DNA of 46,849 nucleotides, taken from Haliea sp. E1-2-M8. Lineage in GTDB: Bacteria; Pseudomonadota; Gammaproteobacteria; Pseudomonadales; Halieaceae. Location of the stretch: assembly GCF_030649675.1 (NCBI RefSeq), contig NZ_JAUTDR010000024.1, forward strand, positions 17,140 to 63,988, read 5' to 3'. The translations under genes were made by a program, and so were the position numbers. Positions 17,874-46,314 of the stretch are shown here, in pieces. Under the pieces are notes generated by a model. That model searched no databases. It had not been told where the DNA came from and worked only from the letters and a program-made list of their open reading frames with translations. The first letter of the stretch is position 1, and the number at the start of each line of letters is the position of its first letter.

Positions 17874-19031
17874 ATGCCCGAGCTTCACGAACAGTTCACC
17901 GCCACCGTCCGCGATCTCGGCACCGACGGTAGCGGTATCGTCGAACACCCGGGCGGCCAGGTGTTCTTTGTCGCCGGTGTCTGGCCCGGCGAAACGGCCC
18001 GCTTTGCGGTCACTGGTTTCAAGCAGCGTTTCGGTTTTGCCCGGCTGCTGGAGCTGCTCGAGCCCTCCCCTGCCCGTGTGACGCCACCCTGCGTTCACCA
18101 CGGTACCGGCCCCGGCGACTGCGGTGGCTGCCCCTGGCAATTCGTCAACTACGCAGCCCAGCTCGAAGCCAAGGAGCAGCGCGTGCAGCGGGCTCTGGCG
18201 CGCCTGCAGCTGACGACGGAAATCGCGCCGATCTGGGGTTCGCCCGCTATTTTCGGTTACCGCAACCGGGCGCAATTCAAGACCGACGGCAGGAAGCTGG
18301 GCTATGTCGCAGCGGGCTCCAGGCAGCTTGCGCCCATCGCCGACTGCCCGATCCTGACGCAGCCCAATCGGGGAACCCTGCAGGCACTGCTGCAATCACT
18401 GCCCAACAACCTGTTCCGCCCCGGCCGCAAGCAGGACTGGACCACGCTGGATGTCGACGAGGAGGTCAGCGCCGCGGAGGTGGTACCGAACCAGCGTCGC
18501 CCCTTCCGCCAGGGCAACGCAGCGCAGAACCTGCGCATGCGCGAGTGGCTGGGAGCCCGCGTGGACCAGTTGGACCCAAGCCGCACCGCGCTGGAGCTGT
18601 TTTCCGGTTCCGGCAATTTCACCGAAATGCTGGTGGCCGCTGGCTTCGCGCGTATTCTGGCGGTAGAGGGCGTGGAAGACAGCGTCCAGGCGCTGGCCGC
18701 CCGCCAGCTGCCCGGCGTGGAGGCACAGCGCTATAACCTGTTCGCCGAAGCCGACTGCTCACGACTGCAGGAGCAGGCGCGGGATGCCAGCATACTGGTA
18801 CTGGACCCACCCCGGGACGGGTTCAAGCTTGCGGGGCTGTTGCTGACGAAAAAGCACCGCTTGCGGGACGTGTTCTACATTTCCTGTGACCCGGCCACCT
18901 TTGCCCGGGATATCGACATCTTCATTGGCGCTGGTTTTCGAACCGCCGAAATACAGCCCCTGGACCTGTTCCCGCATACACCGCACGTGGAGCTGCTGTG
19001 CTGGCTGCAGCGACCAGCAGCAAGCCAATAG
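17874..19031 (+). CDS. RlmD-like class I SAM-dependent 23S rRNA (uracil-5-)-methyltransferase
   Basis: This encodes 385 residues, a little shorter than E. coli RlmD (433). The N-terminal TRAM-like domain covers about residues 4-62. Four Cys that fit the [4Fe-4S] site are Cys73, Cys83, Cys86 and Cys158 (CGGC and ADCPI). The SAM domain has LELFSGSGNFTEML, then VLDPPRDG. The catalytic Cys is Cys338 in YISCDPATFARD and the general base fits Glu373 in HVELL. Family members methylate C5 of uracil in 23S rRNA (RlmC/RlmD) or tRNA (TrmA); the TRAM domain and cluster favour RlmD-type. It is divergent from azlC. Position specificity is not provable from sequence. Confidence 0.88.
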   Translation: MPELHEQFTATVRDLGTDGSGIVEHPGGQVFFVAGVWPGETARFAVTGFKQRFGFARLLELLEPSPARVTPPCVHHGTGPGDCGGCPWQFVNYAAQLEAKEQRVQRALARLQLTTEIAPIWGSPAIFGYRNRAQFKTDGRKLGYVAAGSRQLAPIADCPILTQPNRGTLQALLQSLPNNLFRPGRKQDWTTLDVDEEVSAAEVVPNQRRPFRQGNAAQNLRMREWLGARVDQLDPSRTALELFSGSGNFTEMLVAAGFARILAVEGVEDSVQALAARQLPGVEAQRYNLFAEADCSRLQEQARDASILVLDPPRDGFKLAGLLLTKKHRLRDVFYISCDPATFARDIDIFIGAGFRTAEIQPLDLFPHTPHVELLCWLQRPAASQ

Positions 19032-29543: not shown

Positions 29544-31811
29544 TTATTTCCCATCGCCATGTTCTCCTTTATCGTCATCAGTATTTACTGTGCCAGGGAG
29601 AATGGCGGTCTTCTGATCGACAAGAATGCCAGCATAAAACCGCTGCACGCTTTCACTGAAGCGACTGATGCTGAAATTGTCCGCGAAAGATTCTGCGTTC
29701 GCAGACAGCTTTTTGTGCAGCGCCGGATCAAGAAGCAATTGCTCAATCCGGGCGCTCCACTGTGCCGTGTCCGCCGGTGTCTTGAAGCCGTTGAATCCAT
29801 TGTCGACGATATCATCGATGCCGCTTGATCGCACTGCGACTACAGGCATTCCGGCCGCCATGGCCTCCAGGATTACCATGCCCTGGGTTTCAGAGCGGGA
29901 GGCGAACAGAAAAATGTCGCCCAATCGGCAGTAGACAGGAATCTGCTCCGGCGCAACGGCGCCCAGCAGAGAAACGGAGTCTGCCAGCCCCAGCTCACGG
30001 ATTCGTGCGTCGATCCGCTGTCGCTCCGGCCCATCACCGATAATCAGCAATCGAAAGGGCTCTGCACAGCCGATTTTTAATGTTCGAATGGCATTGAGCA
30101 GGAAGTCGATATTTTTCTCCCCACTCAGGCGGGAAATGCTGATCAGTATCCGCTCACCCCGCGGTGCATGCTCTGCCTGCAGTTGGCGGAGTCTTTCCTC
30201 GGGAACAGCACGAAATTTTTCGACATCGATGCCGGTGGGTTGCACCAGTATTCGCCGCCTGACGCCAATCGTGCGCAGATATTCTTCAGCACTCTCCGTC
30301 GGCACGATGACAGCATCACAGCGATTGGCAAATCGCCGAACCACTGCATGAGATACCAGGTTGCGAAACAGGGGGCCAGGCAGGGGAACATAATGGGCAT
30401 AGTGTTCCAGGCGGGTGTGATAGGTATAGACCACGGGGATACCCAGGCGCCGGGCCAAAAACACGCCGGCGCTGCCCAGCCAGAACGGATGGTGCACGTG
30501 AATAATATCCGGACGAAAGCGGAAGACCTGGCGATACAAGCGGGGTGAAAACACATTGGCCAGGCGAAATTCGCGGTGTCTGCCCAGGGGCAGTAGTGCG
30601 CGCACCCGCAAAATAAAAGGGTCGTCAGCGTCCGTGTTCGGGTAGCGGGGGGCGACAATCAGTACTGTATGCCCCAACTGCACCAACCCCTGGCGCAGTC
30701 GGTCTATGGAAATGGGCACTCCACCAATAAAGGGCAGATAGTTATTGGTAAACATCGCGATGCGCAACGGCATATCGAGCATGGTGTCGGGGTCCGTATC
30801 GAAGTCGGGGTAGTAATCCCGTTCCGTAAATATCCGTGTTTTGAGCCAGATCGCGACGGCGACAAAGATACTGACCAGCAGGATGAAATTGAGGTACCCG
30901 ACATAGAAAAGAGAGTGGACAAAAAACCAGAAACTTTCCAGGTTCCGCCAGATCGGGTGCTGTCCGATCTGTAATCGCCGTTCCTCGACCGCAACCTGGT
31001 CGCCCTCGACGCTCACCGAAACGTAATGATAGTGGCTGCGCTCGTTATTGATCACCAGTCCGCCGGCGCCGCCGGTGACGACATATCGAGTTTCGTCGTG
31101 GGTCTCAAGATCGAATACCGGGAAATTGGCCGAAAATACGGTGTCCACCTCGAAATGCTCGATCAACTTTGCAAAGCGCTCGCGCTCGTCTCCGGCGAAC
31201 AGGTTGTCGTCACTCAGGCCGAACAGCCCCGACCGTTTCACAGGATAGAGTGGATGGGCACTGAACACGAAAAGGTTCGTTTCGTCCGCTGCGGCCAGTT
31301 CCTCCTCCAGCCAGCGGTACTGCCAGCCGAAATCCGTGGTGCCCGTACTGTCGAGAAAGACCAGGCGATTGTTGCCCGCGCCAAAGCTGAAATGCAAGGG
31401 GCCGAAGTGGTCGTAAAAACGAAAGCCACCCAGCCGGCTTTCTTCCTGAGGGCCGAATGTCAGCAGGTAGGGCATATTCAGACGCGTCAGTGTGCGATAA
31501 ATGGCGCGGTATTTGTCTTCACCCCCGGTGGAGAGGGCATTCCCGGCGGACACCACAAAGTCGTAGTCTCCCCTGTTTAGCAGAGGGATGATCTTGCGTT
31601 CGAAAATACCCACCGAGTTGCTGATATTGCCGACAACGGCAAAACGGAAGTTTGTGCGCCCATTGAGTGCAGCTTCAATATCTTCGACCTGGGCGGCATG
31701 TTCCGCAGCGAAGTCCTGTTCAAAAAAGTTGAGATAGATCTTGTAGACCACCAACGCTGCCGCCAACGTCAGGCTGAGCCAGTAGAGCCAGCGAAGCATT
31801 TCTCTACCCAT
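29544..31811 (-). CDS. Glycosyltransferase family 4 fused to an inactive metallophosphoesterase-like domain
   Basis: This encodes 755 residues. TM1 is about residues 8-24, an extracytoplasmic domain spans 50-285, TM2 about 303-323, and a cytosolic GT4 glycosyltransferase runs from about 348 (PLRIAMFTNNYLPFIGG; FRPDIIHVHHPFWLG; SRLSGEKN; ASRSETQGMVILEAMAAG). The middle domain has calcineurin-phosphoesterase architecture (VFLDSTGTTDFGWQYRWLEE, YVVTGGAGG) but its metal motifs are lost: VVGNIS where DxH is expected, AGN for GD, FGPQE for GNHD and FSANFP for SGHxH. His186 (AHPLYP) remains. GT4 likely adds sugar to a lipid acceptor (inference). ATG 31811 has AAGGA upstream and overlaps the flippase-like gene by 8 nt. 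Confidence 0.88.
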   Translation of the reverse strand: MGREMLRWLYWLSLTLAAALVVYKIYLNFFEQDFAAEHAAQVEDIEAALNGRTNFRFAVVGNISNSVGIFERKIIPLLNRGDYDFVVSAGNALSTGGEDKYRAIYRTLTRLNMPYLLTFGPQEESRLGGFRFYDHFGPLHFSFGAGNNRLVFLDSTGTTDFGWQYRWLEEELAAADETNLFVFSAHPLYPVKRSGLFGLSDDNLFAGDERERFAKLIEHFEVDTVFSANFPVFDLETHDETRYVVTGGAGGLVINNERSHYHYVSVSVEGDQVAVEERRLQIGQHPIWRNLESFWFFVHSLFYVGYLNFILLVSIFVAVAIWLKTRIFTERDYYPDFDTDPDTMLDMPLRIAMFTNNYLPFIGGVPISIDRLRQGLVQLGHTVLIVAPRYPNTDADDPFILRVRALLPLGRHREFRLANVFSPRLYRQVFRFRPDIIHVHHPFWLGSAGVFLARRLGIPVVYTYHTRLEHYAHYVPLPGPLFRNLVSHAVVRRFANRCDAVIVPTESAEEYLRTIGVRRRILVQPTGIDVEKFRAVPEERLRQLQAEHAPRGERILISISRLSGEKNIDFLLNAIRTLKIGCAEPFRLLIIGDGPERQRIDARIRELGLADSVSLLGAVAPEQIPVYCRLGDIFLFASRSETQGMVILEAMAAGMPVVAVRSSGIDDIVDNGFNGFKTPADTAQWSARIEQLLLDPALHKKLSANAESFADNFSISRFSESVQRFYAGILVDQKTAILPGTVNTDDDKGEHGDGK

Positions 31812-32865
31812 GGGAGTCCTTCCTCCGGGCAAACGCATAGATCGAAACCGGCACGCCGATCAGCATCCCCAGGTGAACGGTTAAAAAGCGCCAGCCGAGC
31901 ACCAGAAGCAGTAGATCACCGGACTCCAACAGCGAAGTAAAAATCACCGCGAAAACGCCCTCGGCAATCCCGGCGGCGCCTGGCGTGGGGGCAAAGTACA
32001 TGATGAATGTATTCACCAGCATTAATGCCAGGATCAGCGGATAGTCCACCGGGGAGCCCATTCCCCACAGCAGCAGCGCCGGGAATGAGAACAGGGAAGT
32101 CAGGAATATCGCCGTCGATACCAGCGCCAGGACCAGGTCAGCGAGATTGCCTTTGAAAAAGGCCTGGAAGCTGTAGCCGAAGCGGATCATTTCCCGACGC
32201 AGCCGGAACCGCCAGCGACGCTGGCGCGACTCCCCGATCAGATGCAGGCGATGGGCCAGCGCCAGCACCGCGGTGGCGGCGTGGATGAACCAGCGCAAGC
32301 GCCATAGCAGCAACAGGAAAAAGGCGACGTAGAGCACGGCAAAGAGGCCCAGCCAGCCACCCCATTGGCTTGCCAGGGGGCTATCCACCAGCCGGTCAAT
32401 GCTGAACAATAACACCGGCGCCGGCAGGAATATCATCAGGCTGGAGAGCAAAGTACGCACGGTAGTGGCGGCCGTGGCGGCTCCGATATGAATACCGCGA
32501 CGGTGGAGGTACCACACCTGCACCACGCCACCACCGGTGGCCATGGGCGTTATATTGGAAAACAGCAGATTGATGAACACCAGGGGCAGCATCGTGCGCA
32601 GTGGCTGGTGTTGACCTAGCGATCGTAATGTAAACCATAACCTGAGACCGTCACTCACGTAGTACACGGTCAACAATGCCAGGGCCGACACAATGAATCG
32701 CGGAGTGAACAGCTCCCGCCACAGGAGATCGAACTGTCCATTGAGCTCCTTCACGATCGTCACTGGCACCAGGGCGCTGAGCAGGACGAACAGCACAGCG
32801 AACCCGATGATCTTGAAGGGATTGACGGGGAGTGTCATACGGGATGCCAGGTCCGATGGCTTCAT
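31804..32865 (-). CDS. Lysylphosphatidylglycerol synthase TM-region / UPF0104 membrane protein (flippase-like)
   Basis: This encodes 353 residues with about eight transmembrane helices. Family marks are NITPMATGGGVVQVWYLHRRG in the first half (split here as NITPMATGGG and VQVWYLHRRG) and PTPGAAGIAEGVFAVIF near the end, the TPGG-type signature of YbhN/MprF-like proteins. These proteins are proposed to flip lipids or lipid-linked sugars. The ATG at 32865 lies 17 nt after the corA pseudogene; ATG 32838 is an alternative. Its stop overlaps the next gene (GT4 fusion) by 8 nt, so both proteins are probably made together and could act on the same glycolipid (inference). Confidence 0.85.
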   Translation of the reverse strand: MKPSDLASRMTLPVNPFKIIGFAVLFVLLSALVPVTIVKELNGQFDLLWRELFTPRFIVSALALLTVYYVSDGLRLWFTLRSLGQHQPLRTMLPLVFINLLFSNITPMATGGGVVQVWYLHRRGIHIGAATAATTVRTLLSSLMIFLPAPVLLFSIDRLVDSPLASQWGGWLGLFAVLYVAFFLLLLWRLRWFIHAATAVLALAHRLHLIGESRQRRWRFRLRREMIRFGYSFQAFFKGNLADLVLALVSTAIFLTSLFSFPALLLWGMGSPVDYPLILALMLVNTFIMYFAPTPGAAGIAEGVFAVIFTSLLESGDLLLLVLGWRFLTVHLGMLIGVPVSIYAFARRKDSHG

Positions 32866-32882: not shown

Positions 32883-33586
32883 CTAGAGCCAGCCTTTGCG
32901 CTTGAAGTACCAGTAGGGAGCGATTCCCGCGAGTATCATCAGGCCGATAGCCCAGGGGTAGCCCAGCAGCCACGCCAGCTCAGGCATGTGCTCGAAGTTC
33001 ATGCCGTACATGCTCGCCACCAGGGTTGGTGGCAGGAAAACCACAGCCGCAATCGAAAATATCTTGATGATCTTGTCCTGCTCAATATTGCCAGAACAAG
33101 GTAACTGACACCCTCCAGCTGCCGGTGCAGGTCCTCCAGGGTGTCGGCTTGGTTTTCCATTTTCTGCTCGAACAGGGTCACCAGCAGATTCTGAGGTGAG
33201 CGTGCTGCCACCTGGCCCCGCCGGGCTCGCAGCCGAAGCAGGCGGAAGTCGGCGACATCGTCGTCGCGAATGGTAATCAGCCGCTCCTTTTGCAGGATGC
33301 AGGCCACCGAGACCGTATTGTGTCGCCCGTCGGCCTGGGTCAAAAACAGGTTGTGGACATGGATGCCAGCCTGATCCACGAAACACCGGGCCGATGCCTC
33401 AATCTCCTCCATTTCATCGGATTCTGGCAGGTCGGTGTGCAGCATTTGCGCCAGCATGGAACGCTCCTGCTCATCGGGTTTGTGGGCATCGATCCAATCG
33501 GCCTCGGGCAGGCAGGTGAAAATCTGATCCGTTGGGCATTCGATCTCCTGGATCAGTCCGGCGTTGATTCGAAACAGCCTCAGCAT
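32883..33586 (-). pseudogene. corA: corA magnesium/cobalt transporter, internally deleted and frameshifted
   Basis: The N-terminal CorA domain reads in one frame from ATG 33586 (GAGGTGA upstream) through [20 protein letters not shown]; that frame then runs out at 32999 with unrelated residues. The C-terminal part reads in another frame, [20 protein letters not shown]..., including the pore motif YGMNF and the last two helices, to the stop at 32883. The switch is near 33090-33110. In intact CorA about 80-90 residues of the long helix separate these blocks, so the join has lost about 250-270 nt, not a multiple of three. The ORF is therefore a pseudogene, or a sequencing/assembly artefact. Confidence 0.82.
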
Positions 33587-34745: not shown

Positions 34746-35549
34746 CTATTTGAAATTGACGTTGATTGCACCGAAGGGGCCGTAATCGGCCCGGATGTGG
34801 TCCCCGGCACGCACCACCACCGGACGAGTGAAAGATCCGGACAGGATAACCTGGCCGGCTTCCAGGCCTACGCCCCAGGGGGCAAAGCGCTTGCACACCC
34901 AGCGGACGCCTTCGGCCGGGTGACCCATCACGCCCGCCGCCAGGCCGGTTTCCTCGATCTCGCCGTTCAGGTAAAGCGCGGCACCGGCCCATGGCAGGTC
35001 GACGTTCTGCGGGTCGATATGGGAGTCGCCGAGAATAATGCCGGCGTTGGCCGCGTTGTCGGCAATGGTGTCGAACACCTTGCGGGTGTAGCCGGTCTTC
35101 GGGTCGGTGCGGTAGCTGCGGGCCGCGATCAGTTCCAGGGCGGGCACCACATAGTCGGTGGCCGCCATCACCTGTTCCACAGTGACGTCTTCGCCGAACA
35201 GAGGTTGCCGGAGCACAAAGGCGAATTCCACCTCGATGCGCGGGTCGGTGAAATCCCCCGCGCTTATGGTGCCGCCATTGGAGTAGAGCATGTGATCCAG
35301 CAGCACCCCGTAGTCGGGGGTGTCGATATTGACCGCCATCTGCATGGCGCGTGAGGTCAGGCCAATCTTGTAGCCAATGACTTTGTGGCCTGCGCTGATT
35401 TTCTGGTCCACCCAATGCTTCTGCACGCGATAGGCGTCGCCCAGGTCCATGTCGGGGTAGGTCAGGGTCAGGGCCGGGATTTGCACGCGCTGGCGCTCTG
35501 CTTCATGCAGCTGCTCGGCGGCGTCGGCAATCTGCTGCTCAGTGAGCAT
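34746..35549 (-). CDS. hpaH: 2-oxo-hept-4-ene-1,7-dioate hydratase (HpaH)
   Basis: This encodes 267 residues, the length of HpaH/MhpD hydratases (fumarylacetoacetate hydrolase-type fold). Clear blocks are GHKVIGYKIGLTSRAMQM, DYGVLLDHMLYSNG, PRIEVEFAFVL with metal-ligand Glu, and PALELIAARS. The enzyme adds water to 2-oxohept-4-ene-1,7-dioate to give the substrate of HpaI, in the cytosol. The ATG at 35549 is 2 nt after the hpaF stop; hpaI follows 14 nt later. This gene order, hpaE-dioxygenase-hpaF-hpaH-hpaI, is that of the homoprotocatechuate pathway. Confidence 0.94.
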   Translation of the reverse strand: MLTEQQIADAAEQLHEAERQRVQIPALTLTYPDMDLGDAYRVQKHWVDQKISAGHKVIGYKIGLTSRAMQMAVNIDTPDYGVLLDHMLYSNGGTISAGDFTDPRIEVEFAFVLRQPLFGEDVTVEQVMAATDYVVPALELIAARSYRTDPKTGYTRKVFDTIADNAANAGIILGDSHIDPQNVDLPWAGAALYLNGEIEETGLAAGVMGHPAEGVRWVCKRFAPWGVGLEAGQVILSGSFTRPVVVRAGDHIRADYGPFGAINVNFK

Positions 35550-35551
35550 GA

Positions 35552-35920
35552 TCAGATGTTCTTCCGGTTGAATTTGACATGTGGGTCCAGTTCGCGCATC
35601 TCGAAGGACACCGCGAGAGGCCGGCTGTCGAACAGGGGCTGCAGGTGCTGCATCAGGGTGTCAAACAGCTGCTCCCCCACGGCCGTGCGGGTGTCCAGGT
35701 CACGACCGTGGCCGACTTTTACGCTGAGGTTGACAAAGCCATTGTCGGGGTTGCCGTCGCCCACGCGAAACTCCTCGCACCGCACCGCGCGGCTGCGTAT
35801 ACCGGCCAGCGGAAATACACCAGTGTCGGCGGCCACCCGGTGCATCGTTTGCATGAGCCCCGCCAGATCCAGCTGCTCCGCCGGCAGGTTGGCGGAGTAC
35901 TCGTAAATAAAATGTGCCAT
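35552..35920 (-). CDS. hpaF: 5-carboxymethyl-2-hydroxymuconate delta-isomerase (HpaF), N-terminal Ala variant
   Basis: This encodes 122 residues. Conserved blocks match E. coli CHMI: FPLAGIRSRA, FVNLSVKVGHGRD and SFEMRELDPHVKFNRKN. It would isomerise 5-carboxymethyl-2-hydroxymuconate to its 2-oxo form in the tautomerase-superfamily fold. In E. coli CHMI the residue after the initiator Met is Pro, the catalytic base; here the start reads MAHFIYEYS, so Pro1 is Ala. The codons are ATG GCA CAT, so this is unambiguous. The start overlaps the dioxygenase stop by 1 nt (TGATG). Activity may be reduced or use another residue. Confidence 0.9.
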   Translation of the reverse strand: MAHFIYEYSANLPAEQLDLAGLMQTMHRVAADTGVFPLAGIRSRAVRCEEFRVGDGNPDNGFVNLSVKVGHGRDLDTRTAVGEQLFDTLMQHLQPLFDSRPLAVSFEMRELDPHVKFNRKNI

Positions 35921-36750
35921 CAGGCCGCCTCAGGCAAGTCCACAATCCCCACGGTGCAGCCCACCGCAAAGATGGGGATCGGGCGATAATAGTGCACGGT
36001 GGCCGGGGTGCCGGCGGTGGCGCCTGAGACCGCGATATAGGTGCGAATCTCGAAACCACCCTGCCCGGCCTCAAGGTAGGTGCGTTCGTCGCTGTAATCC
36101 AGCAGGCGCTCGCGGTCATTATTGCTCCAGCGGTCCAGGAAATCGCGATCCCAGGGCGCGTTGATCTTGCCGGAGTCCGGCGTAGCCGGCCAGTGGGAGA
36201 TGCCCCCGGTGCCGACAATGGCAATGCGCTCGGGCACCGCGTCGCAGGCCTTGCGCAGGGCCTCGCCAAGGGTCCAGGCCCGGTGCAACGGCGTGAGCGG
36301 TGGTCCCTGGCAGTTGATGTTCACTGGAATGATGGGCAGATCGTAGCGCGGGGTGAGGAAATGCAGCGGCACCATGATGCCGTGGTCGCACTTCCATTCC
36401 TCGGCGTAGGCCAGGTCGACCTCCTGCATGGTGTGCTCGATGAGGCGCCGCGACAGGTCCGGGTTGCCCGGAATGTTCTGGCGCTCTATGCCCAACCACT
36501 GCGGGTCTTCGATGGGGCCCTGGTAGTCCTGCGCCATGCCCACGCAGAAGGCAGGCATGTTGTCCATGAAAAAATTGGCGAAGTGTTCCGCAGTGATTAT
36601 GATCAGCGCGTCGGGGCGTGAGGCCTCCAGGGCCAGGCGCATGTTGTTCATGGCCGTGTACAGGGTCTCGACGTCATCGGCCCGGGCCATCACCTTGCGG
36701 CCGGTAATGCCCGGGGCGTGGGAACACACGCCGGCGAATACCAGGCTCAT
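35920..36750 (-). CDS. LigB-type class III extradiol dioxygenase catalytic subunit (homoprotocatechuate 2,3-dioxygenase candidate)
   Basis: This encodes 276 residues. Ligands of the LigB site are present: His11 (CSHAP), His56 (TAEHFANFF), Glu234 (GGFEIRTY), and the catalytic His186 (GTGGISHW). This is the protocatechuate 4,5-dioxygenase-type fold, cleaving the aromatic ring between a hydroxyl carbon and its neighbour, with Fe(II). Gene context makes homoprotocatechuate (3,4-dihydroxyphenylacetate) the likely substrate. It differs from the single-chain E. coli HpaD by having a separate LigA-type small subunit directly upstream (ATGA overlap). ATG 36750 is supported by that overlap. Confidence 0.88.
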   Translation of the reverse strand: MSLVFAGVCSHAPGITGRKVMARADDVETLYTAMNNMRLALEASRPDALIIITAEHFANFFMDNMPAFCVGMAQDYQGPIEDPQWLGIERQNIPGNPDLSRRLIEHTMQEVDLAYAEEWKCDHGIMVPLHFLTPRYDLPIIPVNINCQGPPLTPLHRAWTLGEALRKACDAVPERIAIVGTGGISHWPATPDSGKINAPWDRDFLDRWSNNDRERLLDYSDERTYLEAGQGGFEIRTYIAVSGATAGTPATVHYYRPIPIFAVGCTVGIVDLPEAA

Positions 36751-37061
36751 ATTGCCCCCTTGCCGTCGGTGGTTGCATACAGCCCCGCGCGCACATTGCC
36801 GTGCTGCTCCAGGGCCGTCCGCATGGCCTGGATATAGTCTGGCCAGGCATAACCGCACAGGGCCGCGTAGTGCATCAGTAGCTGGCCATTCACGCCCATG
36901 ATGTACAGCATGCCGATATCCGGCTTCTTCAAGGTCGCCAGTTCTTCTTCGTCCAGCCGGTAATGCCTGAGCACGCTATCGGGGTCCTCCAGGTACTGTT
37001 GCTGCAGATCCGGCTCGCGGTTCAGCTGGTAGAGCAGTTTTTGCACATAGTACAGGCTCAT
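36747..37061 (-). CDS. LigA-type small subunit of extradiol dioxygenase
   Basis: This encodes 104 residues of the LigA helical fold: YQLNREPDLQQQYLEDPDSVLRHYRLDEEE-type sequence (visible as LNREPDLQQQYLEDPDSVL and RHYRLDEEEL), then LKKPDIGMLYIMGVNGQLLMH. LigA wraps the LigB active site in protocatechuate 4,5-dioxygenase. The stop overlaps the catalytic subunit ATG by 4 nt, as expected for a stoichiometric complex. The start is 2 nt after hpaE. It lacks metal ligands, as usual for LigA. Confidence 0.88.
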   Translation of the reverse strand: MSLYYVQKLLYQLNREPDLQQQYLEDPDSVLRHYRLDEEELATLKKPDIGMLYIMGVNGQLLMHYAALCGYAWPDYIQAMRTALEQHGNVRAGLYATTDGKGAI

Positions 37062-37063
37062 GG

Positions 37064-38581
37064 TCAGCGCCCCAGTACGGGTACTTTGTGGGTGTCGTGG
37101 GCGATGCAGACGTTCTTGGTTTCCATATAGAAATCAAAGCTGTAGTCGCCGCCGTCGCGGCCGATTCCGCTCATCTTCGCGCCGCCGAAGGGCGAGGGCA
37201 AGTTGCGGTTGTTTTCGGAGTTGACCCAGATCATCCCCGCCTCGACCTGATTGGCCATGCGCAGGGCGCGGCCGGTATCGCCGGTCCAGATGTAGGCGCT
37301 GAGGCCGTACTCGGTGTCATTGGCCATGTGCAGCGCCTCTTCCTCGGTGGCGAAGCTGATGGCGGTGAGCACCGGGCCGAAGATCTCCTCGCGGGCGACG
37401 CGCATGCTGTTGTCGGCCTGGGTGAACAGGGTGGGGCTGACAAAGTTGCCCGGGCCCAGGTCTTGCCGCCGGGTACCACCCACTGCCACGGTAGCGCCGT
37501 CCCGACGGGCGATGTCCATGTAACTCATTACTTTTTCGAAGTGGCCGCTGTGCACCAGCGGGCCGACTTCCGTGGCCGGGTCCAGCGGGTGCCCCACCCG
37601 CAGGGCCTTGACCCGTTGTTCCAGGGCGGCGAGGAAGCGGTCACGGATGCCGCTCTGGACCAGCAGGCGACTGCTTGAGGTACAGCGTTGACCGTTGAGG
37701 CTGTAGATCATGAATACGACAGCGTCCAGGGCGCGCTCGAAGTGGGCATCGTCAAATACGATCACCGGGTTCTTGCCGCCCAGTTCGAAGTGGACGCGCT
37801 TCAGCGTATCTGCCCCCTGGCGCATGATATGGCTGCCGGTGGCGGATTCGCCGACCAGGGCCACGGCCTTGATCGCGGGATGTTCGGTCAGGGCCTTGCC
37901 TGCGACTTCCCCAAAGCCGTTGACGGTATTCCACACCCCGGCGGGAATACCGGCCGCATGGCTGATTTCCGCCAGCAGCATGGCAGACAGGGGGCTCAGC
38001 TCGGCGGGTTTATGCACCACGGTACAGCCCGCGGCCAGTGCCGGGGCAATTTTCCAGGTGGCCAGCATGAACGGTGTGTTCCACGGGGTGATGACAGCGA
38101 CCGGACCCAGGGGGCTGCGGATGGTGTAGTTGGTGTGCTGCTCCTGGTGCAGGGCCAGGCCGTTGCGCGCTTCCGGCGCCTTGTCGGCGAAAAAGCGGAA
38201 ATTGGCAGCACCGCGCTGGGCCGCCTGCTGCATGAAGCGAATCGGTTGGCCGCAGTCCATGCTCTCCACCAGGGCGATCTCTTCCGCGCGCTCTACGACC
38301 AGGTCGGCGAAGTGGTGCAGCAGCTTCTTGCGCTCGTTGCCCGGCATGTCGCGCCAGGCGGGAAAGGCGTCCCGGGCAGCCTCACACGCAGCGTTGACGT
38401 CAGCGGCGGTGCCGGCGACCACCTGGCCCAGAGAGCTGTTGTCACTGGGCGCAACATTGCTGAAAGTCTCCGCCCCAGGTGGTACCCGCATTTCCCCGCT
38501 GAGGTAGTGTCCGGTCACCTGGTCGAGAAAGCGCCGCAGGTAGCCGGAGGCGGCGGATTTATTGCCTTCAAAGTCGGCCAT
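37064..38581 (-). CDS. hpaE: 5-carboxymethyl-2-hydroxymuconate semialdehyde dehydrogenase (HpaE)
   Basis: This encodes 505 residues of the NAD-dependent aldehyde dehydrogenase family. Active-site residues are Asn168 (PWNTP), Glu266 (FELGGKNP) and Cys300 (GQRCTSSSR); the Rossmann motif lies at VGESATGS. HpaE oxidises the semialdehyde from ring cleavage. It is the first gene of the leftward operon (hpaE-ligA-type-ligB-type-hpaF-hpaH-hpaI) and starts at ATG 38581. A predicted promoter with TTGTCT and TACATT boxes lies about 50-75 nt upstream, overlapped by a palindrome likely bound by the regulator. Confidence 0.93.
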   Translation of the reverse strand: MADFEGNKSAASGYLRRFLDQVTGHYLSGEMRVPPGAETFSNVAPSDNSSLGQVVAGTAADVNAACEAARDAFPAWRDMPGNERKKLLHHFADLVVERAEEIALVESMDCGQPIRFMQQAAQRGAANFRFFADKAPEARNGLALHQEQHTNYTIRSPLGPVAVITPWNTPFMLATWKIAPALAAGCTVVHKPAELSPLSAMLLAEISHAAGIPAGVWNTVNGFGEVAGKALTEHPAIKAVALVGESATGSHIMRQGADTLKRVHFELGGKNPVIVFDDAHFERALDAVVFMIYSLNGQRCTSSSRLLVQSGIRDRFLAALEQRVKALRVGHPLDPATEVGPLVHSGHFEKVMSYMDIARRDGATVAVGGTRRQDLGPGNFVSPTLFTQADNSMRVAREEIFGPVLTAISFATEEEALHMANDTEYGLSAYIWTGDTGRALRMANQVEAGMIWVNSENNRNLPSPFGGAKMSGIGRDGGDYSFDFYMETKNVCIAHDTHKVPVLGR

Positions 38582-40801: not shown

Positions 40802-42217
40802 ATGCTCATGCTATTCCGTTATCGACCGGATTCAGGCTCAAACCTGATGCACCGGACAGCGCGCTTATTGATAGGCAGCGTGCTCATTGGCTTTTCCGGG
40901 CTGATCTTTGCCGCGGACCGCGACTACACAACATTGACGTTACCCGAGGCGCTTGCCCGAGTGCTCAGTGACAATCCTGAACTGGCCCACTATCCCTACG
41001 ATGTCCGCGCGGCCGAGGCGCGGGCACTGCAGGCGGGGTTTCGGCCCAACCCGCGGGTTTCACTCGAGGTAGAGAATCTCGCCGGCAGCGGCGAGCTTTC
41101 CGGGATCGACGCCATGGAAACCACCCTGGCACTCAGCCAGGTCATTGAAATGGGCGGTAAACGCCCGCTGCGTCAGGATGTCGGCCAATGGCGTCGCCAA
41201 TCCATTGAGCGCGACTATGAACTTGCCCGCCTGGACGTGTTCTCCACGGCGGCAAGCCGGTACCTGGAGGTGGTGCAAACCCAGAGCCTGCTGGCCTTCG
41301 CCCAGCAAGTCGTCGACTTCACCACCACCGCGGAAGCTGTCGCCCAGAAGCGGTTTGACGCCGGTAGCGCCAGCCGGGCCGAGCTCAGCCGTGCCCGCAC
41401 GGACCTGATGCAAGCGAAACTGGCGGTGAGTACTCTCAAGGTGGGCCTGGCTAACGCCAAGCGTCGCCTGGCGAGCTTGTGGGGGCAGGCCGAGGCGGAT
41501 TTCAGCGGCGTGGAGGCCGAACTCTTCGCCCTGGCCCCGGTTCCTGACTTCAGCAGTATCCAGCTCCAACTGGAACAGGCCCCTCAGCTGCAACGGTTCA
41601 TGACGCTGTCAAGGTTGCGCCAAGCCGAGCTGGACCTGGCCATCGCCCGGGGCCGGCAGGATATCGAGGTAGGCGCCGGTATTCGAAGGTTTGAGGAAAC
41701 CGGGGATACAGGCCTGGTGGTGCAGTTCTCCATGCCCCTTGGCGTCTTCGATCGCAATCAGGGCGACATCACCGCCGCAAGGCAAGACCTTGCAAAACTT
41801 GACCTGGAGGAGAAGGCCACACGGGTAAAAGTCTTCACTGAACTGCGCAATGCCTTCGCCCAGCTGGAACAGGCCCGGGAACGGGTGACCGTGTTGCGAG
41901 AGCAGATTTTGCCCGAGGCGCAACAGGCACTGGCTCTGGTTCAGGATGGCTACGGCGATGGGCGCTTTTCCTACCTGGAACTGGTAGAAGCCCGGCGCCA
42001 ATTGCTGTCCTTCGAAACCGAGGCCGTCACGGCCGCCACCGACTTTCACCAAACCCTTATCACCCTGGAGACCTTGACTGGCCAGCCGCTGACGGGAGAA
42101 CGCGAATCACTGTATCCCCCGAATGCGGCCAATCCTCTCCGGTCTGAACTGCGCCTACCCATGCTCGGTGGCGCCGCTGACCACGCGTCTTTTTTGCAAC
42201 AGGATGAATCAGAATGA
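40802..42217 (+). CDS. czcC: Outer-membrane efflux protein, TolC family (CzcC-type)
   Basis: This encodes 471 residues. GAGGTGA lies 5-6 nt before ATG 40802. A signal segment (LLIGSVLIGFSGLIFAA) is followed by two OEP repeats rich in helical coiled-coil (ARYLEV, LRQAELDLAIARGRQDIEVGAGIRRF, ELRNAFAQLEQARERVTVLREQ). PNPRVSLEVENLAGSGELSG is typical of CzcC. It forms the outer-membrane channel of a tripartite metal pump with the adaptor and RND genes following. Its stop overlaps czcB by 4 nt (ATGA). Confidence 0.92.
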   Translation: MLMLFRYRPDSGSNLMHRTARLLIGSVLIGFSGLIFAADRDYTTLTLPEALARVLSDNPELAHYPYDVRAAEARALQAGFRPNPRVSLEVENLAGSGELSGIDAMETTLALSQVIEMGGKRPLRQDVGQWRRQSIERDYELARLDVFSTAASRYLEVVQTQSLLAFAQQVVDFTTTAEAVAQKRFDAGSASRAELSRARTDLMQAKLAVSTLKVGLANAKRRLASLWGQAEADFSGVEAELFALAPVPDFSSIQLQLEQAPQLQRFMTLSRLRQAELDLAIARGRQDIEVGAGIRRFEETGDTGLVVQFSMPLGVFDRNQGDITAARQDLAKLDLEEKATRVKVFTELRNAFAQLEQARERVTVLREQILPEAQQALALVQDGYGDGRFSYLELVEARRQLLSFETEAVTAATDFHQTLITLETLTGQPLTGERESLYPPNAANPLRSELRLPMLGGAADHASFLQQDESE

Positions 42218-43197
42218 ACAAGCTATTGCGCCATGTAGTTAGTGGATTGTTGATCGTCGCATGGTCACCTTACGGCGCCACTATCGCGACAGCCGCCGCG
42301 GAGGATCACGCCGACGGAGCAGGCGACCATGCCGGAGAAACCACGGATCAAGCCAGTCATGAAGAGACTGAAGAGCCTGAACTGACCTTTAATGCCGGTC
42401 TCTTAAGGGATTTTGGTGGTGAAATCGCCACCGCCGAGGCTGGGGTGATTCTCCAGCAGGTATCACTCCCAGGCGAAGTGAAACTGAACGAGGAAGCCGT
42501 GGCGCATATCACGCCGCGCTTTTCGGCCAAAATCGTCAAGGTACAGGCAAAAACCGGGGACCGGGTAAAAGCTGGAGATATTCTCGCCACCGCAGAAAGC
42601 TCGGAAACACTGTCCCGCTTTGAGCTGAAATCCCTGATCGACGGTGTCGTCATCAAACGCCACGTCACCCTGGGTGAACATCTGGCGGCCGATGATACTG
42701 CCTTCGTTGTTGCTGATCTGTCCACGCTGTGGGTGGATATCGCCCTCTACCCCAAACAGGTGCCACTGGCAAAAACGGGACAGCCCGTGCGGATTAGCAC
42801 CAGCCACGGTCCTGCGCCGGTGGGGGCCCGTCTCGATTATGTCGCTCCCCTGGTGGACGAAGGTACGCGCACAGGCTTGGCGCGGGTTTTCCTCGCCAAT
42901 ACAGACAACAACTGGAAACCGGGCATGTTCGTTGAAGGCAGGATTACCCTGGGTGAATATCCTGCCGCGGTAGTGGTCCCCAAAACCGCCGTCATCGATG
43001 TTGAGGGCAAGCCCACAATATTCGTTCAGCATGACGAAAGCTGGGAACCCCGCAAAGTCGGGTTGGGGCGCGAAGACCGCGACTCCGTGGAAATCCTGGC
43101 GGGGCTGGAAGCGGGCGAACGGTATGTTGCCGCGGGTGGATTCGTGCTCAAGGCACAGCTGCAGAAGAGCGAATTCGAAGCCGGTCACAACCACTAA
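42214..43197 (+). CDS. czcB: RND periplasmic adaptor, heavy-metal type (CzcB)
   Basis: This encodes 327 residues. After a signal sequence the N-terminus is His/Asp-rich (EDHADGAGDHAGETTDQASHEE in parts), a likely metal-collecting region. The barrel-sandwich hybrid is visible in KIVKVQAKTGDRVKAGDILATAES and SLIDGVVIKRHVTLGEHL (in parts), followed by a beta-barrel and the membrane-proximal domain (VVVPKTAVIDVEGKPTIFV). It links CzcC and CzcA in the periplasm. The gene starts inside the czcC stop and ends 15 nt before czcA, so all three are one operon. Confidence 0.92.
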   Translation: MNKLLRHVVSGLLIVAWSPYGATIATAAAEDHADGAGDHAGETTDQASHEETEEPELTFNAGLLRDFGGEIATAEAGVILQQVSLPGEVKLNEEAVAHITPRFSAKIVKVQAKTGDRVKAGDILATAESSETLSRFELKSLIDGVVIKRHVTLGEHLAADDTAFVVADLSTLWVDIALYPKQVPLAKTGQPVRISTSHGPAPVGARLDYVAPLVDEGTRTGLARVFLANTDNNWKPGMFVEGRITLGEYPAAVVVPKTAVIDVEGKPTIFVQHDESWEPRKVGLGREDRDSVEILAGLEAGERYVAAGGFVLKAQLQKSEFEAGHNH

Positions 43198-43212
43198 TCG
43201 CGGAAGAACCGT

Positions 43213-46200
43213 ATGCAAACTCTTATTCGTTTTGCGCTGGAGAACCGACTGTTGGTGGTCGTGATTTCTCTGGCGATGCTTGCCGGCGGTTACTTTGCCT
43301 ATCGCACCCTGCCGGTTGACGCCTACCCGGATATTTCTCCGGCGCTGGTGCAGGTCTTTGTGGAAACCGAAGGCCTTGCGCCTGAGGAGGTGGAAAAATA
43401 CGTCACCTACCCCGTCGAGAGCGCCATGAATGGCCTGCCGCAGCTGGATCACGTGCGCTCGATCTCCAATTTCGGTTTGTCAGTGGTCAACATCTATTTC
43501 GAGGACGGTACTGACATCTACTTTGCCCGCCAATTGGTGGGCGAACGGCTACAGGTGGCGCGGGGGGCTATTCCCGACGGTTTCGGCGAGCCGGTGATGG
43601 GCCCCATCACCACCGGGCTGGGCCAGATTCTGTTCTACGTGCTGGAGGACACCAGCGGGCAATACAGCAACACCGAGCTGCGTGAAACCCAGGACTGGAT
43701 CGTCAAGTTCAACCTGCAAACGGTGAAAGGCGTTACCGAAGTCCTCTCCATCGGCGGTGAGGTCAAGCAATTCCAGGTGCGTATCGACCCCGACGCGCTG
43801 ATCCGCTACGACGTGTCTCTGCCCGCCATCAAGGAGCGCATCGAGGCCAACAATGCCAATGCGGGCGCCCAGTTCATTGTCAAGAACGATGAGGAGTACA
43901 TCGTGCGCTCGGTGGGCCTGGCCACGGATCTGGAGGCCCTGCGCAACATCGTGGTAAAAACCATCGACGGCACCCCGGTTTATCTGCATCAGCTCGCTGA
44001 GCTGGAGATCGGCGGCGAAATCCGGCGTGGCCTCACCACCAAGAACGGTGAAGGCGAAGTCGTTGTGGGCATGGTATTGAAGCTGATCGGCAGCAATACC
44101 TCCCAGGTGATTGCCGCGGTCAAGCAGGAATTGGCCACGATCAACGACAACCTGCCCGCAGGTATCGAGGTGCAGCCCTATTACGACCAGGCGACACTGG
44201 TCAAGGCAGCGGTCAGCACGGTGATCAACGCCCTGCTGCAGGGCATCGTTCTGGTGGCGCTGGTGCTGTTGGCGTTTATGGGCGGCCTCAGGCCCAGCCT
44301 GGTGGTGGCGCTGTCGATTCCTTTTTCCGTCGGCTTCACTTTTCTGGCCATGAAATTTTTCAACATCTCCGCCAACCTGATGTCCCTGGGTGGGATTGCC
44401 ATTGCCATCGGCATGATGGTGGACGGCGCGGTGGTGGTGGTGGAGAACATCGACCGCATGTTACGCGAATCCTCGCCGGACGAATCGCGCATGCACGTGG
44501 TAGCGCGGGCCTGTCAGTCGGTGGCGCGGCCTATTCTGTTTGCGATCAGTATTATCATCATCGTGTTTCTGCCACTGTTTACCCTGCAGGGCGTGGAAGG
44601 TGCCACTTTCCGTCCGCTGGCCTATACGGTTGCGGTGGCCATGCTCGGTTCGCTGCTCTATGCCCTGATCGTGGCGCCAGTGGCCTCGTCTCTGCTGATG
44701 AGACGTCCCAAGACAGACCCTGATAAACCGCGCAAGGACATCATCAGCTTCCTGCTCAAAGGCTACCAGCCACTGGTTCACGCCATGGTTGCCCGGCGTT
44801 GGATAGCGGTGTCTCTCGCTGCCGTGGTGCTGCTTATCGGCATCGTCGTTGCCCCACGTCTGGGTTCGGAGTTTGTGCCGCGCTTCAATGAAGGAGATCT
44901 GCTGATCCGCGCCACCATGGCGCCCTCCATCTCCCTGGAAAAAGCCGAGACCACCATCAATGTATTCGAGCGCCAGTTGCTTGCGGCGTTTCCGGAAGTC
45001 ACCCAGGTGGTGTCGCGCATCGGCCGGGGCGAAGTTGGCGCCCACGCGGACCCGGTGAACAACGCGGAGATTTTCGTCGCCCTTAAACCCCAGGATGAGT
45101 GGCAAAGTGCAGAGACACTGGATGGCCTATACGCGGCCATGAGCGAAAAGTTTGCGAATTTCCCGGGTGCCCAATTTAACTTTACCCAGCCCATTGCCGC
45201 GGCCGTTGATGAACTGCTGACTGGCACCAAGGCTGAACTGGCTGCGAAGTTGTTTGGCGATGACCTCGATGTGCTCGTGGAGAAGGCGCAAGCCATTGAA
45301 CAGGTGATGCGCACTGTCCGCGGTGCCCAGGACGTTCAGCGTGACCAGATCGGCGGTACACCGCAACTGCGCATAACGCTGGACCGGGCTGCAATCGCCC
45401 GTTACGGACTCAATGTCAGCGATGTACAGCGCACCCTGAGCGTCGCTGTGGGTGGCAGCGAGGCCGGACAGGTGTTCGAGGGCATCCGCCGCTTTGACAT
45501 CTACCTGCGCCTTGAGGAAGCCGCGCGCAATCGGGCCGATGTCATCGCCCAGCTGATTATCAAGAACGCCACCGGGCAGCGCATACCTCTGGAAGAACTG
45601 GCCTCCATTAAGGAGGTGGTGGGACCGCGCCAGATCACCCGTGAAAACAATCAGCGCTTTATCACCATCCAGACCAATGTTCGCGATCGGGACATCGGCT
45701 CCTTCGTGGCCGAGGCTGATGCCGCCATTGCGCAGCAAGTGGATTTGCCGCCGGGCTATTTTCTGAAATGGGGCGGGCAGTTCGAACTCCAGCAACAGGC
45801 CAACAAGCGCCTGATGATCGTGGTGCCGATCACCCTGGCCCTGGTGTTCCTGATGCTGTTCGTCAATTTCAGGTCCCTGCGCAACGCCCTGTTGATCATG
45901 CTCAATATCCCGCTGGCGCTGGTGGGCGGTATCGTTGCCCTGTGGCTCAGCGGCCAGAGCCTCTCGGTGCCTGCGTCAGTGGGCTTTATCGCCCTCTTTG
46001 GTATCGCCCTGGAGAATGGGCTGGTATTGGTTAGCTATTTGAATGAACTGGTCAAGGATGGGGTGTCGATTGCCGAAGCGAGTGTGCGGGCGGCCTGTGC
46101 CAGGCTGCGGGCGGTATTTATGACCGCCATCACAACCGCTCTGGGGCTTTTTCCGCTCCTGTTCGCCACCGGCACCGGCAGCGAAGTGCAGCGGCCACTG

Positions 46201-46314
46201 GCCACCGTTGTTGTCGGCGGCTTGGTGACCGCCACTATTCTTACCCTATTGGTTATACCTGCGCTGTATCAATGGTTTGCCGACAAGCCCGACGATATAA
46301 ATGAGCCCCACTAA
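43213..46314 (+). CDS. czcA: Heavy-metal efflux RND transporter (CzcA/CusA family)
   Basis: This encodes 1033 residues, typical of HME-RND pumps. The N-terminal helix is followed by PVDAYPDISPALVQV and the first porter domain. The fourth transmembrane helix carries IAIGMMVDGAVVVVEN, with Asp of the proton-relay (VDGAVV). The second half repeats the layout, with FNEGDLLIRATMAPSISLE near 560 and VGFIALFGIALENGLVLVSYL near 930. It exports divalent cations (Zn, Co, Cd) or monovalent Cu/Ag; the VDGAVV motif favours divalent metals, not proven. It is the inner-membrane engine of the CzcCBA pump. Confidence 0.93.
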   Translation: MQTLIRFALENRLLVVVISLAMLAGGYFAYRTLPVDAYPDISPALVQVFVETEGLAPEEVEKYVTYPVESAMNGLPQLDHVRSISNFGLSVVNIYFEDGTDIYFARQLVGERLQVARGAIPDGFGEPVMGPITTGLGQILFYVLEDTSGQYSNTELRETQDWIVKFNLQTVKGVTEVLSIGGEVKQFQVRIDPDALIRYDVSLPAIKERIEANNANAGAQFIVKNDEEYIVRSVGLATDLEALRNIVVKTIDGTPVYLHQLAELEIGGEIRRGLTTKNGEGEVVVGMVLKLIGSNTSQVIAAVKQELATINDNLPAGIEVQPYYDQATLVKAAVSTVINALLQGIVLVALVLLAFMGGLRPSLVVALSIPFSVGFTFLAMKFFNISANLMSLGGIAIAIGMMVDGAVVVVENIDRMLRESSPDESRMHVVARACQSVARPILFAISIIIIVFLPLFTLQGVEGATFRPLAYTVAVAMLGSLLYALIVAPVASSLLMRRPKTDPDKPRKDIISFLLKGYQPLVHAMVARRWIAVSLAAVVLLIGIVVAPRLGSEFVPRFNEGDLLIRATMAPSISLEKAETTINVFERQLLAAFPEVTQVVSRIGRGEVGAHADPVNNAEIFVALKPQDEWQSAETLDGLYAAMSEKFANFPGAQFNFTQPIAAAVDELLTGTKAELAAKLFGDDLDVLVEKAQAIEQVMRTVRGAQDVQRDQIGGTPQLRITLDRAAIARYGLNVSDVQRTLSVAVGGSEAGQVFEGIRRFDIYLRLEEAARNRADVIAQLIIKNATGQRIPLEELASIKEVVGPRQITRENNQRFITIQTNVRDRDIGSFVAEADAAIAQQVDLPPGYFLKWGGQFELQQQANKRLMIVVPITLALVFLMLFVNFRSLRNALLIMLNIPLALVGGIVALWLSGQSLSVPASVGFIALFGIALENGLVLVSYLNELVKDGVSIAEASVRAACARLRAVFMTAITTALGLFPLLFATGTGSEVQRPLATVVVGGLVTATILTLLVIPALYQWFADKPDDINEPH

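Follow-up and report, generated by a model that had tools for sequence, protein, structure and literature searches.

A dead metallophosphoesterase ectodomain, retained by selection, is fused to a GT4 glycosyltransferase with alternative, putatively lipid-translocating partners

What could a glycosyltransferase gain from a phosphoesterase fold that sits across the membrane from it and has lost its metal ligands? The question is raised by a gene in a 46,849-nucleotide stretch of Haliea sp. E1-2-M8 (contig NZ_JAUTDR010000024.1, positions 17,140 to 63,988; hereafter the window), where one open reading frame (ORF) on the minus strand joins, from N- to C-terminus, a first transmembrane segment (TM1), a calcineurin-fold domain, a second transmembrane segment (TM2) and a GT4 glycosyltransferase. 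The fusion protein has 755 amino acids if started at the ATG at 31811 (29544-31811), which is preceded by GGAGGAAGG, and 764 if the ORF 29544-31838 is counted from its first ATG. Its start and the stop of the upstream gene, which encodes a flippase-like protein of the UPF0104 / LPG_synthase_TM type (353 amino acids; 31804-32865, minus strand), share the 8 nucleotides ATGGGTAG (31804-31811), an overlap already noted in a preliminary description of the locus. We propose, with a probability of about 0.62, that the two genes form an inner-membrane module for glycolipid synthesis and translocation, the ectodomain of which binds a ligand.

A misassembly of two adjacent genes, or a chance fusion, is ruled out as the origin of this architecture: all 13 fusion loci recovered by a scan of genome contigs (seven in Halomonas/Vreelandella, two in Marinobacter and one each in Rheinheimera, Pseudohongiella, Neopusillimonas and an unclassified gammaproteobacterium) are single ORFs. 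The comparisons below use 30 full-length members, Rhodobacterales plasmid copies included, drawn from overlapping samples of 369 genomes of the class, 58 of relatives and 398 of the phylum, together with 34 plasmid records (5 stretches read). Each of the 30 is likewise a single ORF, that of L111 being read stop to stop. Set aside were a truncated Desulfosarcina copy (L114), an incomplete second copy at L009 and, of the 30 Pseudosulfitobacter records, all but L113, which represents them.

On its own, the N-terminal domain of the window protein has no Pfam match. Seven of 14 family members match PF00149 (Metallophos) in a scan admitting E values up to 10 (best 7.1e-5), with the Sulfitobacter plasmid member L112 above the cut-off (25.6 vs 21.5 bits), and a profile of the 14 retrieves purple acid phosphatases from PDB sequences (best E 1.9e-4). 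An AlphaFold2 model of residues 1-345 (mean predicted local distance difference test score, pLDDT, 72.0; predicted template modelling score, pTM, 0.69) places TM1 at residues ~3-29 (31725-31805; Kyte-Doolittle peak at residues 9-30), a soluble domain at 54-280 (30972-31652) and a helix at 286-301; TM2, a helix in the AlphaFold2 model of the whole protein, lies at 304-328 (30828-30900; Kyte-Doolittle 2.32 at residues 304-322). The best Foldseek match of the 1-345 model is GpdQ (E 1.3e-10); purple acid phosphatases, Rv0805 and GAP50 follow, with Vps29 lower. The ectodomain is a calcineurin fold. Lysine plus arginine, averaged over the 30 members, number 3.4 before TM1, 2.2 after TM2 and 1.0 on each flank of the ectodomain, so the topology fits an N-terminus inside, an ectodomain outside and a GT4 domain inside; nucleotide sugars are reachable only from the cytoplasm, and the GT4 domain therefore has to be there.

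Metallophosphoesterases hold their metals through the motifs D-x-H/Q, GD, GNH[DE], H and GHxH. Read from an alignment with L022, a relative with intact motifs, and from position counts, the window protein has N62 for the aspartate of motif I, N91 for that of motif II, P121 and Q122 for the NH of motif III, A185 for the histidine of motif IV and ANFP for the GHxH of motif V. The ligand set is kept in none of the 30 fusions: residue 62 is asparagine in 27 and glutamate in 3, residue 91 is asparagine and residue 185 alanine or glycine throughout, residue 229 is never histidine and residue 231 is so in 3, and neither GNH[DE] nor GHxH occurs in the first 340 residues of any member. Intact motifs in homologues, which the preliminary description had set against its own reading of a pseudoenzyme, were found in none of the 30 fusions and only in relatives without a GT4 domain: the 19 weaker relatives, which comprise every weak match of the class, relatives and phylum samples (6, 5 and 8) and have no GT4 match, carry GNH[DE] in 18 cases, GHxH in 16 and both in 16 (pattern sought anywhere in the ORF). 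That the domain still works as an enzyme by an altered mechanism is very improbable; E123 is invariant and 16/30 members have an acidic residue, D or E, at position 121, making one metal site possible, but no member retains more than one of the eight canonical ligand positions and both motif aspartates are replaced in all 30.

Decay of the dead domain is ruled out by the ratio of nonsynonymous to synonymous substitution rates (dN/dS), which in 13 close pairs (dN <0.15, dS <1) lies far below 1, with ranges of 0.063-0.177 (dead domain) and 0.045-0.218 (GT4 domain). Distant pairs give values of up to 0.53, on which we do not rely because their synonymous sites are near saturation. The ectodomain is thus a dead metallophosphoesterase retained by selection, and a clear example from bacteria of a pseudoenzyme under selection. 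The sequence observation in the preliminary description, namely a real fusion of a calcineurin-fold pseudoenzyme, with all main metal motifs replaced, to a GT4 enzyme on the opposite side of the membrane, is confirmed across the family; its interpretation, considered next, is partly supported.

The C-terminal half (residues ~349-735, 29607-30767) matches the GT4 families PF13439 (1.8e-35) and PF00534 (1.2e-36) above cut-off, and E641 and E649, which form the E-x7-E motif of GT4 enzymes, are present in 30/30 fusions. Its two best NCBIfam models both describe lipid-modifying enzymes and both fall below cut-off, with 193.4 of a required 400 bits for the alpha-monoglucosyldiacylglycerol synthase Mgs (NF049988) and 127.7 of 480 bits for glucosaminyl-phosphatidylglycerol (GlcN-PG) synthase. 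Assignment to either of these named systems is ruled out by these scores, and the glycolipid product suggested in the preliminary description goes further than they show.

The window partner belongs to PF03706 (5.3e-30; 105.4 vs 33.4 bits) and TIGR00374 (1.4e-21; 77.3 vs 43.2 bits). It is flippase-like and suspected, from its family, of lipid translocation; a flippase function has been proposed for the whole COG0392/UPF0104 group (PMC5898192; this and the other papers below are cited from excerpts). A UPF0104 gene lies directly upstream of the fusion on the same strand in 18/30 cases. At the other 12 loci no UPF0104 gene is found, and a gene of the VTT/DedA superfamily adjoins the fusion instead. 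The two genes stand head-to-head at the 7 Halomonas/Vreelandella loci and tail-to-tail at the remaining 5 (L047-L050 and L111, the last with a short VTT reading frame of 183 amino acids). PF09335 is matched above cut-off by the VTT proteins of L004, L005, L047 and L048 (84.8-90.9 vs 33.9 bits), the remaining 8 of the 12 being VTT by homology. Genome-wide tests covered 15 genomes of the UPF0104 type and 11 of the VTT type, plasmid members and L111 standing outside them. The UPF0104 subfamily profile gave one match per genome in 15/15 of the former and none in the 11 of the latter, and the VTT profile, at E <1e-90, matched in 11/11 of the VTT type and 0/15 of the UPF0104 type (best there 1.6e-61), although, with both profiles built from fusion-linked members, the weight of such evidence lies in the absences and in the class samples alone. 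The five strong UPF0104 and two strong VTT matches in the 369-genome class sample coincide exactly with its 7 fusion genomes; beyond these, the best matches reach 4.8e-10 and 1.0e-66, respectively.

In the fusion tree the VTT members fall into two separated clades, and given the starred branches the partner must have changed at least twice. The two clades' VTT genes cluster (82/87), with that of G160 apart, a hint that these bacteria kept the VTT gene and changed the glycosyltransferase; descent of every fusion-linked VTT gene from a single origin is possible (support 65/30). That one slot can be filled from either of two families with no relation to each other, each of them linked to lipid translocation, supports lipid export. 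The earlier suggestion of a lipid-moving partner is thereby strengthened, but its assignment to UPF0104 holds for 18 of the 30 loci and is not universal. The swap is also a natural experiment, offering a direct test of whether UPF0104 proteins and this kind of bacterial VTT protein move lipids.

COG0398 DedA proteins are described as resembling phospholipid scramblases, and the DedA family as including both phospholipid scramblases and undecaprenyl phosphate flippases (PMC10127716, excerpt). As some DedA proteins move undecaprenyl phosphate, the lipid could be a carrier. The corresponding alternative, in which the GT4 domain adds its sugar to a polyprenyl carrier or supplies a glycan pathway and the partners translocate undecaprenyl phosphate, bare or sugar-linked, but not a membrane glycolipid, draws on those flippases, on UPF0104 genes found beside glycan genes in archaea (PMC5898192, excerpt) and on a weak match of the L047 VTT protein to UptA (E 2.3e-4, far below cut-off). 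We consider it quite unlikely, given that the two best models of the GT4 domain are lipid-modifying enzymes, albeit below cut-off, and that no glycan-polymer genes occur among the window neighbours scanned (AsmA, GSDH, EamA and CorA).

The pair of glycosyltransferase and translocase is also found without the dead domain. In genome G272, where the ectodomain profile has no match, a plain GT4 protein of 511 amino acids stands tail-to-tail with a VTT gene (L106, 4909-7141). The VTT protein is 44.6% identical to that of L047, the GT4 protein is 31-37% identical to the fusion GT4s and has Mgs as its best model (142.9 vs a cut-off of 400 bits), and several flanking genes are common to G272 and L047, in a different order. 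The plain pair is a simpler form of the fusion-partner pair. Since it exists without the dead domain, the ectodomain would be an added layer, outside the basic reaction.

In the module that we propose, the cytoplasmic GT4 domain, with its catalytic residues intact and Mgs models nearest, would glycosylate a lipid of the inner leaflet, with a nucleotide sugar as donor. The neighbouring membrane protein, UPF0104 or VTT/DedA-type depending on lineage, would then take the glycolipid to the outer leaflet, as its family and the swap suggest. In what we regard as the weakest step, and in line with the binding or sensing role suggested in the preliminary description, the ectodomain may hold, sense or regulate by binding an external ligand; a head group, either that of the flipped lipid or that of a phospholipid, is one candidate. 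N65, S66, N91, Y101, E123, D154 and H262 are invariant in all 30 fusions, and of the 51 positions in the motif loops 16 are invariant, vs 20 of 176 in the rest of the domain (Fisher p 0.0011, a contrast inflated by glycines that the fold requires). Because the former active-site loops are unusually invariant, ligand binding appears the most likely role of the ectodomain. A bolder version, which we hold to be unlikely, makes the fusion a transmembrane pseudo-phosphoesterase receptor, in which a head group (or phosphate or a cation) in the former active site would signal to the GT4 domain, outer-leaflet glycolipid would feed back on synthesis, and any competent translocase, UPF0104 or VTT, would serve.

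GAP50 and Vps29, both among the Foldseek matches, use the calcineurin / purple-acid-phosphatase fold without catalysis, as their entry titles also indicate. They are eukaryotic and, unlike the protein described here, not fused to a glycosyltransferase. By analogy the ectodomain could be a scaffold or anchor only, holding an envelope protein near the GT4 domain with no small ligand, and the structural glycines in the motif loops fit such a role. We find this rather unlikely, as none of the 30 fusions departs from N65, S66, N91 and E123, which are polar residues of the pocket, and the two unrelated partners argue against an ectodomain that acts only by docking to one translocase.

Several points weigh against the ligand-binding glycolipid module. 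Besides the glycines in the invariance test, the origin of the partner profiles and the chance of a carrier lipid, no named lipid can be attached to the GT4 domain, with the Mgs and GlcN-PG synthase models far under their cut-offs. In far members, identity to the window protein is 43.6-52% for the dead domain, compared with a higher 50.3-60.7% for the GT4 domain. The AlphaFold2 model of the whole fusion protein, as a monomer, is of only moderate confidence (pLDDT 75.3, pTM 0.51).

The preliminary description knew of no system with this architecture, and our searches of a library of open-licence papers found no description of it either. Glycolipid pairs of a GT4 enzyme and a flippase are known; what is unusual here is the conserved dead phosphoesterase fixed outside the glycosyltransferase. 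Among the closest known systems is gpgSDF of Pseudomonas aeruginosa, responsible for GlcN-PG synthesis, in which a GT4 enzyme and a predicted COG0392/UPF0104 flippase share an operon and a membrane lipid is glycosylated; as excerpted, however, that system has a GpgS predicted to be cytoplasmic, without transmembrane segment or ectodomain, and a deacetylase (PMC12713373), which has no counterpart among the window neighbours scanned. In addition, the window misses the models of both the GlcN-PG synthase (see above) and its flippase (38.6 vs 320 bits). PlcP-Agt lipid remodelling likewise links a metallophosphoesterase to a glycosyltransferase, which makes glycosyl-diacylglycerols, but PlcP is described in the excerpts as a separate, active, Mn-dependent enzyme (PMC4796936, PMC8231724), whereas the domain here is dead, fused and outside. 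No clear Pho box is seen in the window, the best candidate showing 4/14 mismatches, a score reached by 31/200 shuffles. In archaeal AglD / UPF0104 proteins a UPF0104 membrane domain is joined to or lies beside a glycosyltransferase, but in a glycan pathway, and no dead phosphoesterase domain is described in the excerpt (PMC5898192). MprF, finally, couples modification of a lipid head group to translocation through a domain related to UPF0104 (PMC5898192), and that of P. aeruginosa scrambles many lipids in vitro (PMC11980842). Unlike the fusion, it aminoacylates and does not glycosylate. To our knowledge, MprF has no phosphoesterase-like domain.

The fusion is present in 7/369 genomes of the class, 3/58 of relatives (2 in the window's own family) and 7/398 of the phylum. 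The 34 plasmid records that match it include 30 from Pseudosulfitobacter, one fusion is carried by a conjugative Sulfitobacter plasmid, and one plasmid copy is flanked by insertion sequence elements. This patchy distribution, along with a Neopusillimonas copy that falls in the window's own starred clade of the fusion tree, suggests that the module has spread by horizontal transfer. Outside Pseudomonadota, the truncated fusion of L114 (8007-9506; ectodomain end, TM2 and GT4) lies on a mobilizable Desulfosarcina plasmid near an integrase and a Tn3 transposase. In Halomonas sp. A40-4 (L009, 1-9489), a complete chromosome, the VTT-fusion pair occurs twice, ~8.85 kb apart; there are two strong VTT matches, and a second fusion start lies at 9312-9488.

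Sodium/calcium exchanger genes lie near 7/29 loci in Gamma- and Alphaproteobacteria (L004, L006, L009, L011, L053, L112 and L115) and corA near 2/29, the window among them. Together with the marine or halophilic genera to which many hosts belong by their record titles, these neighbours speak for an ectodomain that tunes the GT4 domain by sensing phosphate, divalent cations or salt. We think this decidedly unlikely: several of the loci are kin and their flanks differ in length, so that the raw exchanger and corA counts are a lead to cation or salt physiology only, and a Pho-box scan of 17 upstream regions found only that of L013 above shuffles, which gives phosphate control of the module little support.

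The corA-like gene of the window (32883-33586, minus strand) is itself broken, with N- and C-terminal parts in different frames and the middle of the profile (~138-228) missing. Over the C-terminal part it shares 82% identity with the CorA encoded next to the module on the Sulfitobacter plasmid (L112), where a PhoD-like gene is present as well. An RlmD-like ORF (17874-19031, plus strand) is matched by two models only over ~15-185 and ~267-432, as if, like corA, it had lost an internal piece. Elsewhere in the window are homoprotocatechuate (hpa) degradation genes (34746-38581, minus strand; HpaE and HpaH above cut-offs) and CusA/CzcA-type heavy-metal efflux genes of the resistance-nodulation-division class (40802-46314, plus strand; IhpA-like, IhpB-like and CzcA family).

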